Assembly: GCF_018474015.1 (NCBI RefSeq)
Contig: NZ_JAHCSG010000001.1
Coordinates: forward strand, 434,001-498,000
Direction: 5' to 3'
Length of the DNA stretch: 64,000 bases
Source: Williamsia sp. CHRR-6
Lineage (GTDB): Bacteria; Actinomycetota; Actinomycetes; Mycobacteriales; Mycobacteriaceae
Shown: positions 1,722-9,619 of the stretch, piece after piece
Layout: each line of letters opens with the position of its first letter
How positions within the stretch are numbered: position 1 is the first letter of the stretch
Made by a program: the position numbers and the translations under genes
The notes under the pieces: model-generated
Told to the model about the DNA's origin: nothing
The model's database searches: none
The model's input: the letters and a program-made list of their open reading frames with translations, nothing else

Positions 1722-2498
1722 ATGTCCAGGACCGTCCACCCGACACCGGCCCACCATCGCGTGCGCGCATCGGTCACCGTCGCCGCCGTCTGCGCCGCGC
1801 TCGCACTCGGGATCGCCACCCCGGCCACCGCCGCGCCCACCACCACCCAACCCTCGCCGCCGGCGTCCGCCGCACAGTCGGCGCTGAGCCTGGCGACACC
1901 GTCGGCCGCATCGGGCCCCGATGTCTTCGCCCTGATCAGCCAGGCCAACGCGGCCCTGCGGGCCTTGGGCATCCAGTCCTTCCTCAACCCATCGGTGTCG
2001 TTCAACTGCGTCACCCCTACCGCAAGCAACCCGCTGGGACTCGCCGGTGCGGTAGGCGGAGCCGTCGCCGGACCGTGGTCGGCTCCCGGCCTGGCCCTGC
2101 CCACCATCCCGCTGCTCAACATCGACCCCAACGTGGTCAAGGACGGGCAGACTCTCTACGGGTTCGTGCCGGCCGGGATCACCCCGACCGGCGGTGCCAC
2201 CACAGGGATGCAGGTCGCGTGGTTCAACATCTCCACCGGCAAGGGTGGGTTCGCGGCGATGAGATCGGCGGGCGCCACACTCGTCGACACCTGGCTGGCG
2301 GCCGTCCCGGCCGGTCCCCTGAAGGATCTCGCCGCCACCGCCCTGGGCAACCTCGTCACCACCCTGATCCCGCCGGGCACCCGCCTGGCCCCGGTGGACA
2401 CCGGCAAGGGCACCGTTCTGTCTGCGGTGTTCGGCACCGTGGCCAATGGGTCCCGAAGCTGCTTCTTCCTCCCGATGGTCGGCATCACCAGCGTCTGA
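1722..2498 (+). CDS. Secreted protein of unknown function, paralogue 2
   Basis: 258 residues with a signal peptide: VRASVTVAAVCAALALGIA core, likely cleavage after ATAA. The mature protein has Cys in VSFNCVTPT and in SRSCFFLPMVG, placed like those of the upstream paralogue, and shares the WFNISTGKGG segment with it. A ribosome site GGAGAA sits about 6 bases before the ATG. The central stretch is rich in Pro, Gly and Ala with short hydrophobic runs, but there is no transmembrane anchor after the signal peptide, so it is likely released or wall-associated. The 240 bases upstream hold the terminator of paralogue 1 and then an AT-richer stretch with several CACAT/GTCAC words, so it probably has its own promoter. 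The function is unknown. Confidence 0.8.
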   Translation: MSRTVHPTPAHHRVRASVTVAAVCAALALGIATPATAAPTTTQPSPPASAAQSALSLATPSAASGPDVFALISQANAALRALGIQSFLNPSVSFNCVTPTASNPLGLAGAVGGAVAGPWSAPGLALPTIPLLNIDPNVVKDGQTLYGFVPAGITPTGGATTGMQVAWFNISTGKGGFAAMRSAGATLVDTWLAAVPAGPLKDLAATALGNLVTTLIPPGTRLAPVDTGKGTVLSAVFGTVANGSRSCFFLPMVGITSV

Positions 2499-2542
2499 CT
2501 CGATCTCCCGGCGGCGCAGGCCTGAACAGTAGAATCGGGACC

Positions 2543-2647
2543 ATGGTCACGCTCCAGATCGCCCAGGACCCCGCCGCAGACGCTCTGCTGTCGCGCGATT
2601 CGTTTGCCCTGTTGGCCGGCATGTTGCTGGATCAGCGGTGTAGTTAG
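2543..2647 (+). pseudogene. HhH-GPD base-excision DNA repair protein, 5' fragment
   Basis: The frame opens with MVTLQIAQDPAADALLS and runs through FALLAGMLLDQ, the conserved N-terminus of the short actinobacterial HhH-GPD-type base-excision repair proteins, where this motif normally continues QxPME. Here the frame leaves the family after codon 32 and stops at TAG a few codons later. GGGA precedes the ATG. The missing C-terminal part reappears at 4090-4401 in the same orientation, so the gene is split by inserted DNA and is almost certainly inactive. About 50 residues of the middle of the family are absent from both sides, meaning the insertion was accompanied by a deletion. Confidence 0.85.
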
Positions 2648-2903
2648 CCGTGAGAGCAACCGTAGGAGCACGAGTATCTGTCCTGACCGGACGCCAGAAG
2701 GTCTCACACCAGGCACCGGCAGGAGTGCCGAACGTGGGCTGAGAGCCACGGACACGACGTAGTAGGCGCCTTCGAGGACCCGGGTGTGTGTCAGCGACTG
2801 TAGGGCCCGCTAAGTGGCCGTCTCTGGGCCGGTGGCTCACCTAAGCATCAGGCTGTCACTGTCTCGTACGATTAATGATCGGTGGATGCACAGCCACCTG
2901 TTC

Positions 2904-3482
2904 TCATCCAATACTTGGATTAACATCGACGGGATCGACACGGCAGAATCTACAGCAAACAAACCAAACCTCCTGAGGGATATTTCCAGGCTCAACCGGA
3001 GGGAACCGCCATATCATGCGGCCAGCCTCGGTCAAGTTGGTGTACTCGTTGACTCGGATAAGCAGATCGGCGTCCGATTCGACCCGCGGCCGATAGGCCC
3101 ATCCACCGTGCTTGCCGAAGCCTTTAGCGGGCGGGATGTTCGGGTCGAACTCGATCACCAGGTGCTTATCGCGAAGCATCTGGTAGAACGAACGCAAGCG
3201 AGAGAGTTTGTTCTCGCTCATACCTATTCCATCGGTAGCGACGTACTCCCCATGGTCGCGTAGCCGTTTGAACTGCGTGCATTGGCCCTGCTCGGTCGAG
3301 ACGACGAACGGAAAGTGCTGGTTCACCATCTCTCGCGGGCTCAACTTCCCCCCGTAGTGGCGCTTGATCCACGAGATGTACTGCCGCGTCACGCCGTAAT
3401 GCCTAGCGATGTCGGACTGAGACCAGCCTTGTTCTTTCAACGACTCGACATCTGACAAAGACATGATCGGTTTGGCAGGCAA
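2904..3482 (-). CDS. Phage-type immunity repressor, resembling actinophage cluster A repressors
   Basis: 192 residues. The N-terminus has a helix-turn-helix of the Hin/Mu type, roughly residues 9-35 (SLKEQGWSQSDIARHYGVTR then QYISWIKR). The rest (REMVNQHFP, KRLRDHGEY, GMSENKLSRL, EFDPNIPPAKG, GGWAYRPR, DLLIRVNEYTNLTEAGR) resembles what I recall of the L5/Bxb1 (cluster A) immunity repressors that shut down lytic promoters and bind many short stoperator sites. The TTG at 3482 is chosen because GAAGGAG lies 5 bases upstream; an ATG follows 6 codons later. The gene is intact although no other phage gene remains, so it may still confer superinfection immunity. The family assignment is from memory and needs a search. 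Confidence 0.7.
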   Translation of the reverse strand: MPAKPIMSLSDVESLKEQGWSQSDIARHYGVTRQYISWIKRHYGGKLSPREMVNQHFPFVVSTEQGQCTQFKRLRDHGEYVATDGIGMSENKLSRLRSFYQMLRDKHLVIEFDPNIPPAKGFGKHGGWAYRPRVESDADLLIRVNEYTNLTEAGRMIWRFPPVEPGNIPQEVWFVCCRFCRVDPVDVNPSIG

Positions 3483-4015
3483 TGCAACTCCTTCGTTGTT
3501 AGTTGGCGTGGTGAATCAATCCCTACACTAGACACGTCTCGAACGTCAACCCTTGTATAGCAAGTAGTCGTTAGACAACACCATACAAATGGCCAGAGCG
3601 AACACAAAATATGGTGCATCGTCGACAAACCCTAGGGTGTTTGAACCACACCCATCGCTAACTTAGCGAAACCTTCTTCCTGTGCATCTCAAGAATTTGT
3701 TGCCCGAGCTGGCAATAGCGGGTAAGTCGCGTATTTTAAACCGGCCGAACCTGCTTGCGGTGCAGTGTCAAACGACACTAATCCTGCTTGGTTAGTCATG
3801 CCATGTCAAGCCTCCTTTACACTTTACCGATCAGTCCCACAACTCGCCGTTAAGCCAAAGCTGGGGGAAGTCTCCGATGAGTCGCCCTCGTCTCGCTCCA
3901 GCACAACTCGGCCTGAGTCAATACCCACAAATACGGTAATGAATGTCTTGCGGGCGCGGACCACGTCGGGGTGTGAGCGGACCTGCCAGAACGCCCACAC
4001 CCCAGGTCCGTGATT
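3483..4015. promoter_or_regulatory. AT-rich upstream region of the repressor, no further gene
   Basis: This stretch upstream of the repressor is much richer in A+T than the chromosome. On the minus strand it contains TTGACG followed after 16 bases by TGTAGG, a possible promoter, and the near-palindrome CTTGCTATACAAG around 3551-3565. Other short dyads include AACCCTAGGGT near 3630 and CGCTAACTTAGCG near 3655. No protein on either strand is convincing here. Confidence 0.4.
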
Positions 4016-4089
4016 AGACGAACAAGTCCTGGTTGATCCACTGGAACCGGCCACGGCCCGGGATCTCCAAGAACGTCGTCTTGATTGGT

Positions 4090-4401
4090 ATGCAGGCGTT
4101 GGCCTCGGTGATCGTCGAGAAGTACGACGGCGAGACCGCCCGGATCTGGACCGAGGCGACCACCGGTGCCGACCTGGTGGCGCGACTGCAGGAGCTACCC
4201 GGCTTCGGTGCACAAAAGGCCAAGATCTTCACCGCCCTGCTGGCCAAGCAACTCGGCGTGACACCACGCGGCTGGACCACTGCGGTCGGCGACTACGGCA
4301 AGAAGGGCTATCGATCGGTAGCCGATGTCGTCGACGCCGATTCGCTGGTCAAGGTTCGGGCCTTCAAGAAGGAGCAGAAAGCGAAAGCCGCAGCCGGATA
4401 A
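4090..4401 (+). pseudogene. HhH-GPD base-excision DNA repair protein, 3' fragment
   Basis: From codon MQALASVIVEKYDG onward the frame matches the C-terminal two thirds of the actinobacterial HhH-GPD repair protein: LQELPGFGAQKAKIF is the helix-hairpin-helix, GVTPRGW and SVADVVDADSL follow, and the protein ends in a Lys-rich tail (KEQKAKAAAG). An ATG at 4033 opens the same frame, but its first 19 codons belong to the insert. The N-terminal part lies at 2543. The fragment lacks the N-terminal fold and is unlikely to act alone. Confidence 0.85.
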
Positions 4402-4486
4402 CCGGTTCACGCGAGGTGCTCGGCCAGACACGGTTTGCGCCACCGATGCGGCTTGGGTCACACCGCGATGACATACGCTGTCACCC

Positions 4487-5341
4487 ATGGATGTAAAGCT
4501 CGCCTATGAGGTGCCCTTCAAGGTCGGCTTCGCCGTCACCGGGGTGGCGCTCGCAGCCGTCGAATCCAGCGTGACCATCGCCCGCCTCACCTTCGAGAAC
4601 GTCGCACACGAGGTGAATGCGCTGATCGGCGTCGAAGACGACAACTTCTCGGCCCGCACCCCGCTGCAACTGATCGGTCAGATCGCCGAGCTGCTGGGTC
4701 CCGATCGCCCCATCGGCCGCATCCTCGCCGCCGGCGGGCCACTGGATCGACTGTTGCAGCCAGGCGGTGTGGTGGACCGGCTCACCGAGAAAGACGGTTC
4801 GCTGGAGAAGCTCACCCAGCGGGGTGGGCTGCTGGATCAGATGGCCGATGACCACGGCATCCTGCAACGGCTGGTGGCCAAGGACGGCCCGCTGGATCGG
4901 TTGAGCCGCGAGGGCGGGGTGATCGATCAATTCACCGAGAACGAAGGCATCCTGGAACGGCTGACCAGCAAGGGCGGCATCGTCGACAAGCTGACCGCCG
5001 AAGAGGGTCTCCTGAAGAAGATGACCGATCAGGGTGGCATCATCGACCGACTGGTCGACGACGGCGGGCTACTCGACCAGCTCGTGGGCGAGAACGGCGC
5101 GGTGGAACGGGCGATCGCGCACGGCGGTCCGATCGACCGGATCACCGAGCTGACCGAGGTGATCACCATGCTGGCGCCCAGCATCATCGCCATCCAGGAA
5201 ACGGTTCACGAGCTGCGCGACGCGGTCGACATCCTCAACAATGCCGTGACACCGCTGAGCGATCTGGCCGGCCGGCTGCCCAAACGCCTCAGCCGGGGCC
5301 GTCCGTCCACTCCCGAGCTCAACGGCTTAGCCCAACACTGA
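4487..5341 (+). CDS. Repeat protein of unknown function (10-11-residue GG-x2-D-x-L repeats)
   Basis: 284 residues. Residues 1-60 form a mostly hydrophobic or amphipathic start (LAYEVPFKVGFAVTGVALAA). From about residue 83 to 215 there are about 14 tandem units of 10-11 residues of the type GGhhDpLpppp, for example GGPLDRLLQP, GGVVDRLTEKD, GGLLDQMADDH, GGIIDRLVDD. After that a helix rich in Ile, Leu and Val (EVITMLAPSIIAIQETVHEL) and a basic tail (PKRLSRGRPS) follow. No signal peptide or enzymatic motif is visible. The pattern suggests an elongated amphipathic surface that could bind lipid, membrane or another protein; this is inference. The ATG is preceded by a modest ribosome site. It appears to be transcribed alone. 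Confidence 0.75.
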   Translation: MDVKLAYEVPFKVGFAVTGVALAAVESSVTIARLTFENVAHEVNALIGVEDDNFSARTPLQLIGQIAELLGPDRPIGRILAAGGPLDRLLQPGGVVDRLTEKDGSLEKLTQRGGLLDQMADDHGILQRLVAKDGPLDRLSREGGVIDQFTENEGILERLTSKGGIVDKLTAEEGLLKKMTDQGGIIDRLVDDGGLLDQLVGENGAVERAIAHGGPIDRITELTEVITMLAPSIIAIQETVHELRDAVDILNNAVTPLSDLAGRLPKRLSRGRPSTPELNGLAQH

Positions 5342-5380: not shown

Positions 5381-5482
5381 TCAGGTGTCGTTGGAGGTGC
5401 AGCTGCAGGTGGGGCCGCAGTTGCAATCAGTACAGGTGCAGTTCGGGTTTGCGCAGGCCGTAGCCGATTCATTGTCACTCAT
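5381..5482 (-). CDS. 33-residue Cys-rich metallothionein-like peptide
   Basis: The frame from the ATG at 5482 encodes 33 residues with seven Cys packed into 19 positions (core CANPNCTCTDCNCGPTCSC), typical of metallothionein metal-thiolate clusters. The acidic start MSDNES and the lack of hydrophobic residues fit a soluble cytosolic metal buffer, for Cu(I) or Zn(II) by analogy with mycobacterial MymT and other small actinobacterial metallothioneins. It is too short to be called with certainty, but the Cys spacing is hard to explain by chance, and no competing gene covers it. The longer upstream frame is not supported. Confidence 0.65.
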   Translation of the reverse strand: MSDNESATACANPNCTCTDCNCGPTCSCTSNDT

Positions 5483-5549
5483 GCATACAAGTGTGCCAGA
5501 TGGCCCCAGCGCTCGACCATGGTCCGACAGTGCCCCCGGTGCGTTGCTG

Positions 5550-6914
5550 TCATCGGCGTTCGGCGGCTGCGGCGAGCAGAGCTCGATAATGTGCGACGTC
5601 GACGACATCGGGGCTGGCACACACCGACAACGCGACCGTGTTGCCGATCCCATGCACCCCGTGGGTCAGCGACTGCATGGGTGACAGGGCGGGGAATCCG
5701 GCCGTGAGCTGCACCCGGCCCTCGCCCAGTCGCAGATCGGCCGCGCCCCGATCGACGCTGGAGACCACGGTGTTGCCGGTGACGGTCTCGGGTCGCACCG
5801 AAGCGTCGAAACTTCGCACTCCGTGGCGGACCAGCACGGCCGGTAGCGCCCGCAGCACCGCCGCCTCGGCCACCACCGCAGGGTGTGTCCCGCGCCGGCG
5901 TGCCGCGTCGAGATCGGCGCGGATCCGGGCGGCTCGACGATCACGGTCTGGTTCGTCGACCGCCAGATCCACCCCGACCATTCGAAAACTGTTGCCCACG
6001 TTGCCCTGAGAGCGCGGCGGCAGCGCCATCGCCACCTCGGCCCGCAGGCCCGAGTCCACCTCGAGGTAGCTCGACAGGGCCTCCCCCACGATGACCAGGG
6101 CGCCCACGGTGACCGACCCACCGATTCGCCGCAGCCGTGCCGCGGCCACCGGCACCACCGCCAGTCGGCGACGGTCACCAGGGTGCACGTTCACCACACA
6201 GGGCGTGGCGCCGCTGTCGGCGGCCGACATCCGCCCGGCGGCGATGTCGGCCTCGCGCCTGCGGTGGGCACGATGGGCGCGTGGCGCACGCGCCAGCACC
6301 GATCCCAGCGCCACCGGCGTCCGGAGCACACCCGTCAGCGCCGCAACCACAGCCAGGCCTGGGAGTCGTTCGAGGACAGGCGTGGACACCGAGCGCCCGG
6401 TCCCCAAACCTGTTGTGCCCGAACCTGCTGTGCCCGATGCTGTTGTGCCCGAACATGTTGTGGTGGAGAACAGCTCCCGCGCAATCGCAGACGCGCCGGT
6501 TCCGTCGGCCAGCGCATGGGCCATCTGCACGACCACCACCGTCGACTGCTGACCGCGCGATCCGGGCACATCACCCACCGGGGTGAACACGTGCAGTCGC
6601 CACACCTGGCGACGGGTGTCGAGCTGATCGCCCATGGCCTGTGCGAGCAGACTCAGGCAGTGCGACCAATCATCGGCCGTGTGCACTCGAACCTGCTCGG
6701 CCTCCGGCTGTGCCCGAACCCAGTACGGATAGTCCAACGATCCGGGCACCTCGAGAACCCGCAGCCGCAGTTCGGCGAGCCCGGCCGCACGCTGGGCCAG
6801 GGTTGATGCCACCTCTGCCGGCGAGAGGTCAACGCCGACAAAGGAGTACAGCAGGAATTGGTCATTGGGGATGACCGCCGACATCCAGTGGGTGGTGACG
6901 TCGGTCGACGACAT
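5550..6914 (-). CDS. WS/DGAT-like acyltransferase (wax ester synthase family)
   Basis: About 454 residues from the ATG at 6914 (MSSTDVTTHWMSAV), which aligns with the usual MSPxDAxFL start of the family. Family members esterify acyl-CoA to diacylglycerol or long-chain alcohols and are abundant in lipid-storing actinobacteria. The active-site HHxxxDG appears as AHALADG: the first His is Ala while the second His and the Asp-Gly remain. The C-terminal half has the expected MALPPRSQGNVGNSFRMV (Gly-Asn) region and the GNTVVSSV segment. Around residues 165-185 a Gly/Ser/Thr linker is encoded by four 15-bp repeats. The His loss and the linker make activity uncertain. A longer frame opens at 7031 but overlaps the neighbouring gene. 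Confidence 0.75.
   Translation of the reverse strand: MSSTDVTTHWMSAVIPNDQFLLYSFVGVDLSPAEVASTLAQRAAGLAELRLRVLEVPGSLDYPYWVRAQPEAEQVRVHTADDWSHCLSLLAQAMGDQLDTRRQVWRLHVFTPVGDVPGSRGQQSTVVVVQMAHALADGTGASAIARELFSTTTCSGTTASGTAGSGTTGLGTGRSVSTPVLERLPGLAVVAALTGVLRTPVALGSVLARAPRAHRAHRRREADIAAGRMSAADSGATPCVVNVHPGDRRRLAVVPVAAARLRRIGGSVTVGALVIVGEALSSYLEVDSGLRAEVAMALPPRSQGNVGNSFRMVGVDLAVDEPDRDRRAARIRADLDAARRRGTHPAVVAEAAVLRALPAVLVRHGVRSFDASVRPETVTGNTVVSSVDRGAADLRLGEGRVQLTAGFPALSPMQSLTHGVHGIGNTVALSVCASPDVVDVAHYRALLAAAAERR
6409..6468. repeat. Four tandem 15-bp units inside the WS/DGAT-like gene
   Basis: Units start at 6409, 6424, 6439 and 6454 and follow the pattern SCTGYTGTGCCCGAW, with the last copy diverged. 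They encode a five-residue Gly/Ser/Thr repeat on the minus strand. The unit length keeps the frame whatever the copy number. Confidence 0.85.
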
Positions 6915-8312: not shown

Positions 8313-9176
8313 ATGCGCTACGGCATCTGCATCCTGCCTGAACACCGCTGGTCGACGGCGCGGCCGAACTGGCAGCGGGCCGAGCAGCTCGGCTTCCACC
8401 ACGCCTGGACATACGACCATGTCGTGTGGGGCGGTCTGCCCGAGTCGCGCTGGTACGCCGCCACTCCCACGCTGACCGCCGCCGCCTTGGCCACCTCCAC
8501 GATCAAGCTCGGAATGTTCGTCGCCTCACCCAACTTTCGCCACCCGACGCCGTTCGCGCGTGAATTACAAACCCTCGCCGACGTCTCCGGCGACCGCTTG
8601 CTGATCGGGCTCGGCGCCGGCGGCGATCCCGACGCGGCCATCCTCGGCGAGCCCGGTCTGCCTCCCGGTCGCCGGGTGGATCGATTGCAGGAGTTCACCG
8701 AGTTGCTCGACCGGGTGTTGCGCGAGGATCACGTCACCGTGGCCGGTGACTACTTCGCCACCACCGACATGCGACTGAATTCTGAGCCCATTCGTCCACA
8801 GAACCCGTTTCTACTCGCCGGTAATGGACCACGCTCCGTCCGATTCGCCGCACGCCACGGCGACGGCTGGATCACCACCGGGCCTCGATCGGACACCGCG
8901 AGCGAATGGTTCGCGGCGGTGACCGCAGCGAGCACAATCCTCGACGAGGAGCTGGCCGCGGCCCAACGTTCCCGAGCCGACTTCCCCACCTAAGTCAGCC
9001 TCGACTCCGGGCCCGCGAATTCCCTTGCCGGCAAACAACAATTCATCGACATGACCGGCCGCGCCGAAGAGCTCGGCTTCAGTGATGTGATCTGCCACTG
9101 GCCCCGCGACACCGAGCCGTATCGCGCCAGGCTCGACGTCCTCGACGAGGTGGCCGCTGAGGTCCTCGGGAGCTGA
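8313..9176 (+). pseudogene. Luciferase-like (LLM) F420-type oxidoreductase with an in-frame stop
   Basis: The first 226 codons encode a typical LLM-class barrel: MRYGICILPEHRW start, AEQLGFHHAWTYDHV, FRHPTPFARELQTLADVSG, LIGLGAGGDPDA. A TAA at 8991 interrupts the frame, but the same frame continues with VSLDSGP, then LAGKQQFIDMTGRAEELGF and SDVICHWPRDTEPY to a natural TGA at 9174. The continuation is family-like, so one nonsense change (for example from a Tyr codon) or a read error explains it. If real, the product lacks the last barrel strand and helix and is probably inactive. Relatives use F420 or flavin to oxidise diverse substrates. Confidence 0.75.
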
Positions 9177-9415
9177 GATCGATCGGGTTGCACCGCAACC
9201 CATACTGGAATTCACCCGTGAGCGGGTTGACACGGATCACCGCGACCTGTTGACTGTTCCTCGGTACAAGTTTTTGTGTTCGATTGTCGCTCGCAAGAAT
9301 TTACACGCGAGCGCGTCGGGACCATTCCAGGATCTCCTTCGCACCCGTTGTGGACGCACCCGAGAAGTCGCACACGGTGACCTCTCGACCATCACGTAAC
9401 AAAAGGAAATCTCCC
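9177..9415 (+). promoter_or_regulatory. Upstream region and leader of the cold-shock gene
   Basis: The region starts with a perfect hairpin, GGGTTGC at 9185 and GCAACCC ending at 9201, without a T run. TTGACA at 9227 and TTGACT at 9250 are possible -35 boxes. An AT-richer stretch with a T run (9271-9275) follows, then a leader of more than 100 bases, which is common for cold-shock genes. No protein was found here. Confidence 0.4.
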
Positions 9416-9619
9416 ATGACTCAGGGAACTGTCAAGTGGTTCAACGCTGACAAGGGCTTCGGCTTCATCACCCCCGACGACGGCGGCAAGGATGTCTTCG
9501 TCCACTACAGCGAGATCCAGGGCGGCGGATTCCGCAGCCTCAACGAGAACGATCGCGTGAGCTTCGAGACCGAGCAGGGTGCCAAGGGCCCGCAGGCCGT
9601 CGGCGTCAACGCCATCTGA
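9416..9619 (+). CDS. cspA: Cold-shock protein (CspA family)
   Basis: 67 residues covering the whole single cold-shock domain: [15 protein letters not shown] contains RNP-1 and DVFVHYSEI contains RNP-2, followed by [19 protein letters not shown]. These proteins bind single-stranded RNA and DNA and melt RNA structure at low temperature; the actinobacterial copies are often constitutively high. The start is fixed by AAAAGGAAAT just upstream. A strong terminator follows 20 bases after the stop codon, so the gene is monocistronic. Confidence 0.97.

Follow-up and report, generated by a model that had tools for sequence, protein, structure and literature searches.

Immunity conferred by phage repressors usually comes as a side effect of harbouring a prophage. 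Repressors of cluster A phages bind 13-bp operators and stoperators and confer immunity. The locus described here raises two questions: how a phage-type repressor gene came to lie between two pieces of a bacterial DNA repair gene, and whether that gene still does anything for its host. The locus is in a 64,000-nucleotide stretch of Williamsia sp. CHRR-6, referred to here as the window, and coordinates are those of the window unless another locus is named.

A DNA repair gene is split by DNA of low G+C content

2543..2639, + strand: N-terminal piece of the HhH-GPD gene, reaching from codon 1 to codon ~32/33; similarity to all seven congeners stops at 2639
4089..4401, + strand: C-terminal piece of the HhH-GPD gene (from ~codon 85/86), placed by comparison with congeners

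The two pieces lie on the same strand and match residues 1–33 and 86–188 of the intact 189-residue protein of a congener. The gene is unbroken in all seven other genomes of the genus that were compared. Alignment with these genomes puts the left junction at 2639, and on the right side similarity to their HhH-GPD genes picks up again at 4088–4108. About 52 host codons are absent (residues 34–85; 156 alignment columns when the fragment ends are taken from the BLAST ends). The intact protein used as query found a match in 197 of 251 family genomes, and the genome of the window has no HhH-GPD match besides the two pieces, so its only copy is split.

The insert (2641–4087, 1.45 kb) has a G+C content of 0.554, compared with 0.680 in 1–2540 and 0.668 in 4090–64000, and none of 1252 segments of the same size (1447 bases, step 50) fell below it. 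These results agree with a sequence-only reading of this DNA, which had placed the halves of the gene 1.45 kb apart in the same orientation, with DNA of lower G+C between them and about 50 host codons gone. The segment is also not a normal chromosomal feature of the relatives accompanied by an intact repair gene elsewhere, since the repressor gene described below is in none of the seven congeners. When insert flank DNA was compared with 151 family genomes, the matches besides the window itself were short, the best having E values of 9e-4 (~32 bases) and 2e-6 (44 bases).

Other kinds of insert were considered and rejected. For an RNA or intron, the sole Rfam match in 2400–4500 had an E value of 0.33 and 22.6 bits against a gathering score of 50; for a transposon or target duplication, we found just short repeats of 11–30 bases with 70–92% identity.

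Two features elsewhere in the window were seen by eye. A second dip in G+C (0.56 at 9151–9450) overlaps an ORF at 9284–9619 (+) that resembles a cold-shock protein, and a small ORF at 5381–5653 (−) has a cysteine-rich, metallothionein-like end (ACANPNCTCTDCNCGPTCSCTSNDT).

The insert encodes a cluster A-type immunity repressor

2904..3482, − strand: cluster A-type immunity repressor ORF, 192 codons; TTG start at 3482, homology over 2988–3482
3488..3494, − strand: GAAGGAG, the likely ribosome-binding site of the repressor, read from the sequence
3797..3810, + strand: stoperator-like CATGCCATGTCAAG, 11 of 14 to a motif derived from Mundrea

By sequence, the ORF, 192 codons long, encodes an actinophage immunity repressor of cluster A type, as had been proposed from the letters alone. 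Residues 4–165 match phrog_357 (transcriptional repressor) in PHROGs with an E value of 9.6e-77. A tblastn search at 1e-5 found 1082 phage records (1011 Mycobacterium, 44 Rhodococcus, and 26 Gordonia phages and 1 Fromanvirus), with 56–66% identity among the best 60 of the 1082. Identity to 11 aligned homologues is 49–65%. The only solved relative is the TipsytheTRex repressor (PDB 7r6r, E 6.2e-44). Similarity to phage proteins is thus far beyond chance, and the likeness to TipsytheTRex/L5-type repressors extends over 165 residues and includes the two-domain layout.

The structural report on TipsytheTRex describes a two-domain protein in which R45, W50, and R108 are essential (PMC9283540). In the 7r6r alignment these correspond to R33, W38, and R95 of the window repressor, all of which are kept; this equivalence uses an inferred numbering offset of 20. 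Two other positions differ from TipsytheTRex, with D104 replaced by N and K81 by T. D104 is needed in TipsytheTRex, and the Mundrea repressor has L there, so that this position is not conserved in the repressor family.

A further difference from the cluster A phage repressors, apart from the lack of a surrounding prophage, is at the C-terminal end. The phage homologues end in VEP followed by a stop codon. The window repressor is without that stop and reads on for 27 codons past the homologous part to a stop at 2904–2906, so that its end is GAGCCTGGAAA where Mundrea has GAGCCATGAAA plus a stop. The frame is open and the DNA-contact residues are kept, but the description of the repressor as intact has to be qualified for its end. 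The C-terminal region of the TipsytheTRex repressor is reported to be flexible and to make no DNA contact (PMC9283540), and for this reason the 27-residue tail could be compatible with binding.

No promoter consensus was found upstream of the repressor, and the upstream DNA (3483–3826) has no recognisable relative in comparisons with phage and family-genome DNA. The stoperator-like site in this region is no evidence alone because 6.7 matches this good are expected by chance in 64 kb and the window has 5.

Related repressor genes also occur in other settings. Phages Rialto, Ronan, Phox, Alice, and LittleE, whose genomes of 58–155 kb are beyond the usual cluster A size, carry one, and that of Rialto is annotated as a 'hetero-immunity repressor' beside a different immunity repressor of its own. 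The sole plasmid match is in a 51-kb plasmid of M. intracellulare (NZ_AP024256.1, 9404–9798), where the gene is annotated as a helix-turn-helix regulator.

Remnants of integrase and tail genes lie on either side of the repressor

2646..2890 (approx.), + strand: 5' region of a serine integrase gene of cluster A type, in a decayed state, from DNA and peptide matches
3827..3961, − strand: weak candidate for part of a tail assembly chaperone gene, from a shuffle test
3968..4003, − strand: hairpin that follows the tail gene remnant and resembles, by eye, the one behind the major tail gene of Mundrea, Remus, and Lillie
4014..4088, − strand: 3' end of a cluster A major tail protein gene (24 codons plus stop), joined directly to the host gene

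The sequence-only reading held that the insert contains no integrase and no other phage gene. This proved wrong, as the 5' end of an integrase gene and the 3' end of a tail gene are both present. A blastn search with 2640–2985 returned one record, the serine integrase of Dhanush (E 0.008). The peptide translated from 2650 matched 133 phage records, the best 40 of which are all integrases, and its best match is prophiT49-3, a cluster A prophage of M. abscessus with a serine integrase (77% identity over 22 residues, E 0.006). Alignments with seven integrases start at 2646–2662 and end at 2837–2910, with 60–66% identity. Each of them contains frameshifting gaps, the placement of which varies, and the ~240 bp of the remnant hold an in-frame stop plus at least two frameshifts.

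At the other end of the insert, a blastn search with 3483–4087 gave weak matches (E ~2) to 36 phage records, 35 of them of Mycobacterium, and 14 of the 15 best rows name the major tail protein. The 24-residue peptide encoded on the minus strand at 4017–4088 matched 571 phage records with a best E value of 0.01, and the best 25 of these are all tail or major tail proteins. Compared with five reference phages by tblastx, the tail remnant reached an E value of 6e-5. The integrase and tail matches are each weak alone (E ~0.006–2). For the possible chaperone fragment, the score against four phage chaperones was reached by 13, 17, 3, and 441 of 1000 shuffles. A cluster A terminase used as query against the window's own genome gave no match, nor did the integrase of element L110 (see below) against the genus; such empty results show little.

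The left junction coincides with an insertion site in other genera

2631..2646, + strand: probable attL, host GATCAGC followed by GGTGTAGTTA; cut point common to the G112, G182, and G214 pieces

Four family genomes with several HhH-GPD matches were re-examined (G112, G156, G182, and G214). In G112 and G182, which belong to two other genera, the halves of the gene are 9.8 and 10.2 kb apart, and the first half ends in LLDQQ at codon 32/33. The same end point is found in G214, from a third genus, where one contig (C12; L111, 10.4 kb) has two extra HhH-GPD 5' pieces that end at codon 32/33 and another contig (C67) has a further copy with a 30-residue insertion. In G156 the gene is split just by a short gap.

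Integrase genes lie beside these cuts. An integrase ORF begins 17 bases past the last matched host base in G182, and a homologous integrase directly follows the cut in G112 and at one of the G214 pieces; no integrase was found after the cut of the second G214 piece. These integrases have 52–56% identity to that of prophiT49-3. The inserts in G112 (L109) and G182 (L110) are satellite-like elements of ~10 kb with major head and head-tail adaptor genes, and in G112 also a scaffold gene. They resemble the window in attB codon and in having a homologous integrase, and differ from it in that the window has a tail-gene end instead of such genes. The family-genome survey found no repressor match in either genome.

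Because the cut point is shared with other genera and an integrase lies beside the cut, the left junction is most likely the attL of a serine integrase insertion. Its likeness to the second G214 junction (window GATCAGCGGTGTAGTTA, G214 GACCAGCAGGTGTAGATACAC) extends over ~9 bases by eye, and a 15-base pattern of the L111 junction has no match in the window at three or fewer mismatches. On the right side attR is absent, host similarity returning at ~codon 85/86 fused to the 3' end of the tail gene. With attR and most of the phage arm of attL gone, the crossover point cannot be read exactly.

From these comparisons, serine-integrase elements of several genera seem to have an integration hot spot at codon 32/33 of HhH-GPD, and the attB appears to be common to a phage remnant and to satellite-like elements. 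Among the open-licence literature matches listed, none describes HhH-GPD as the attB of a phage. The attB of Peaches (A4) was described as not predictable in 2011 (PMC3029335), and the MabJ prophages are reported at an attB in MAB_2445 rather than in HhH-GPD (PMC8092301).

Origin of the locus

The locus is very likely the relic of a prophage that integrated site-specifically. That it might be the remainder of a prophage that had deleted everything else had been suggested before, and the integrase remnant at the shared cut point together with the tail-gene remnant makes this firmer. A cluster A-like temperate phage would have integrated through its serine integrase at a conserved attB at HhH-GPD codon 32/33. 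The prophage would then have collapsed, losing most of the integrase gene, the greater part of its two genome arms, attR, and HhH-GPD codons ~34–85, with one deletion that began in the tail gene, took out attR, and ended in the host gene at codon ~85. Sequence comparison is the basis for these steps. What remains would be a probable attL, the decaying 5' end of the integrase gene, the repressor with its upstream region, and the 3' end of the tail gene fused to the host gene.

The locus lacks two marks of a complete prophage, attR and the canonical gene order. The first of these, along with the missing duplicated core and the loss of most of the phage arm, would also be seen if phage DNA had been inserted illegitimately by chance with a 156-bp deletion of the target. 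We regard this as highly improbable since the left cut falls at the codon where elements with an integrase have inserted in other genera and, in the window too, the 5' end of an integrase gene adjoins the cut. The gene order poses a different problem. The insert reads int(+), repressor(−), tail(−), whereas a canonical prophage, judged by Mundrea and by the complete prophiT49-3, would give int(+), tail(−), repressor(+). The position and strand of the repressor thus do not fit a simple deletion of a canonical cluster A prophage, and a minus-strand repressor between integrase and tail calls for an inverted segment, the involvement of another phage, or a parent that was itself unusual. One solution is a composite in which the repressor derives from a second element, whether a different phage, a tandem insertion, or an inversion, and was brought together at this attB with integrase and tail remnants that are older. 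The two HhH-GPD 5' pieces at this site on one contig in L111 lend themselves to such a history, as does the occurrence of cluster A repressors in phages outside cluster A. Against it, every piece in the insert is cluster A-type and there is no sequence mark of a second insertion, and we consider it unlikely. Collapse of a site-specifically integrated prophage leaving a repressor that perhaps still binds incoming phage is, as a whole account, likely.

Solo cluster A-type repressors in other hosts

A survey of the family found a repressor match in 21 of 401 genomes, that of the window included. We examined 14 of the 20 others, leaving out six genomes of genus g3 with weak matches at 8 places. 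Three of the 14 loci are in clear cluster A prophages (L041, L043, and L044), for ten the stretch examined holds no further match to five reference phages at E 1e-5, and L037 has one weak match. In GTDB contigs an alignment query found 16 named loci. Five of these are prophages (L063–L066 and L068), nine have no other phage match, and L055 and L056 have two and one weak other matches, respectively. A single-protein query found no relative in GTDB genome contigs or viral contigs. Five loci are common to both surveys, leaving 25 distinct host loci, of which 7 are prophage loci and 18 are solo, meaning that they have no cluster A neighbours; among the loci, L038, L060, and L067 are near a contig end and L046–L049 match remotely or in part. 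Among the named hosts are Mycobacterium fragae, Mycolicibacterium iranicum, Nocardia caishijiensis, Gordonia hankookensis, and Rhodococcus tukisamuensis. Among the open-licence literature matches listed, none reports chromosomal solo cluster A repressors.

Weak matches at the E 1e-3 level near solo repressors were not counted as evidence of a prophage. They comprise two stretches in L036, ~6 kb from the repressor, that resemble the lipoprotein gene of prophiT49-3, a serine-integrase-like stretch in L037 ~9–10 kb from the repressor, and a resolvase-like stretch in L060. L055 also has a resolvase-like stretch near the repressor, a resolvase by Pfam.

The repressor frame is open in 13 of the 18 solo loci and broken or truncated in L038, L047, L048, L049, and L067. 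Three of the open ones form the C-terminal part of a longer ORF:

L040:9680–11524 (−), the same as L061: longer host ORF ending in a repressor domain
L042:9729–11675 (−): longer host ORF ending in a repressor domain
L060:49–918 (+): longer host ORF ending in a repressor domain

The N-terminal part of the L040 ORF, from Gordonia hankookensis, matches Pfam Serpin (E 3.6e-17); those of L042 and L060 have no Pfam match.

Four of the solo repressors have restriction-related genes nearby:

L036:9707–11327: solo repressor next to a type I HsdS gene
L054:6059–10465: solo repressor next to HsdM and HsdS genes
L047:8401–10222: solo repressor near an Mrr-like nuclease gene
L055:7437–10492: solo repressor adjoining an AAA_5 gene whose SRA match is sub-threshold

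We read the AAA_5 gene of L055 as McrB-like; it has no PADLOC match. The first neighbour scan covered ten proteins chosen by eye. In all, 118 neighbour proteins gave matches to 171 PADLOC families (25 of the 171 listed). The controls comprised 11 of 18 stretches and 97 of 159 proteins. These 97 proteins matched 12 PADLOC families, including mad2, mad3, mad8, DndA, and SspA, and no restriction-modification model among them. Restriction genes are near the repressor in 4 of 18 solo stretches compared with 0 of 11 controls, which is not significant. With a rate of 8 HsdS genes in 11 genomes (~63 Mb), ~0.03 would be expected in 18 stretches of 12.5 kb and two were observed, though the genome of L054 is outside the sample from which the rate was taken. 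The restriction-gene neighbourhood was seen post hoc and is a lead only.

Is the repressor kept and working?

The 165 conserved codons of the window repressor (495 bp) contain no frameshift and no stop. If the three lesions of the integrase remnant had fallen at random over ~240 + 495 bases, the chance that all would spare the repressor is 0.03–0.04 by hand arithmetic. All 31 columns that are invariant in 11 homologues are kept in the window repressor; when each homologue was left out in turn, 5 of the 11 also changed none and the other six changed 1–10. The open frame, the kept residues, and the contrast in lesions are compatible with function and are not proof of it.

If expressed, the repressor would bind the operators and stoperators of a related phage entering the cell, presumably as a monomer with two DNA-binding domains. 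The bound protein would shut off the early promoter and block elongation, which would result in superinfection immunity. We rather expect that the protein, if made, still binds DNA. That it gives immunity to some phage today is a more doubtful proposition, although a possible one.

The nearest precedent for a lone cluster A repressor is LRRHood gp44, a cluster A1 repressor in a cluster C phage that has been described as 'repressor theft' (PMC3029335). The authors propose that it protects against cluster A1 superinfection and keep a recent passenger as the alternative (PMC3029335). Like the window gene, gp44 is a cluster A repressor alone, with the rest of its immunity system missing. The settings differ, since LRRHood is a phage whose gene is 99% identical to that of Bxb1, whereas the window gene is diverged and lies in a bacterial chromosome.

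A similar choice applies here. After the same prophage collapse, the repressor could be a stranded passenger, still undecayed, of no use to the host today, and we give this about an even chance. The lost stop codon with its 27-residue tail and the lack of a promoter consensus upstream suggest as much. The absence of the gene from all seven congeners, from which it follows that the gene is not old in the genus, and the breakage or truncation of 5 of the 18 solo repressors elsewhere point the same way. What an inert passenger explains less well is that the integrase remnant has gathered at least two frameshifts and a stop in ~240 bp and the repressor none in 495 bp, and that R33, W38, and R95 are all kept. 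An open frame amid decayed phage DNA would be expected if the host keeps the solo repressor since it blocks cluster A-like phages. A repressor alone can protect: in the TipsytheTRex report, M. smegmatis with a repressor gene under its own promoter and no prophage showed a drop of more than 4 logs in plating of the corresponding phage (PMC9283540). The recurrence of solo repressors, 13 of 18 with an open frame, and the restriction genes adjoining some of them are also in line with such a role. The same lost stop codon and missing promoter consensus weigh against it, and the restriction-gene neighbourhood was noticed post hoc and is not significant against the 11 control stretches. We therefore hold retention as an immunity locus to be possible and lean somewhat against it.

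The broadest form of this idea is that solo repressors, that of the window included, are a recurrent antiphage trait in Mycobacteriaceae. They would derive from prophage collapse or gene transfer, keep an open frame, in some cases lie beside restriction-modification genes or become fused to other domains, and silence incoming cluster A-like phages without a prophage. We offer this tentatively and consider it rather unlikely. Solo repressors are worth testing as chromosomal antiphage genes, and protection of the host by some of them may persist. Should repressors outlast their prophages and remain active, superinfection immunity could become a trait of the host itself, which would be spared the cost of a prophage. 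In that case, genes that may escape prophage finders would in part determine the host range of phages in the family, and one could test what becomes of prophages as they collapse.
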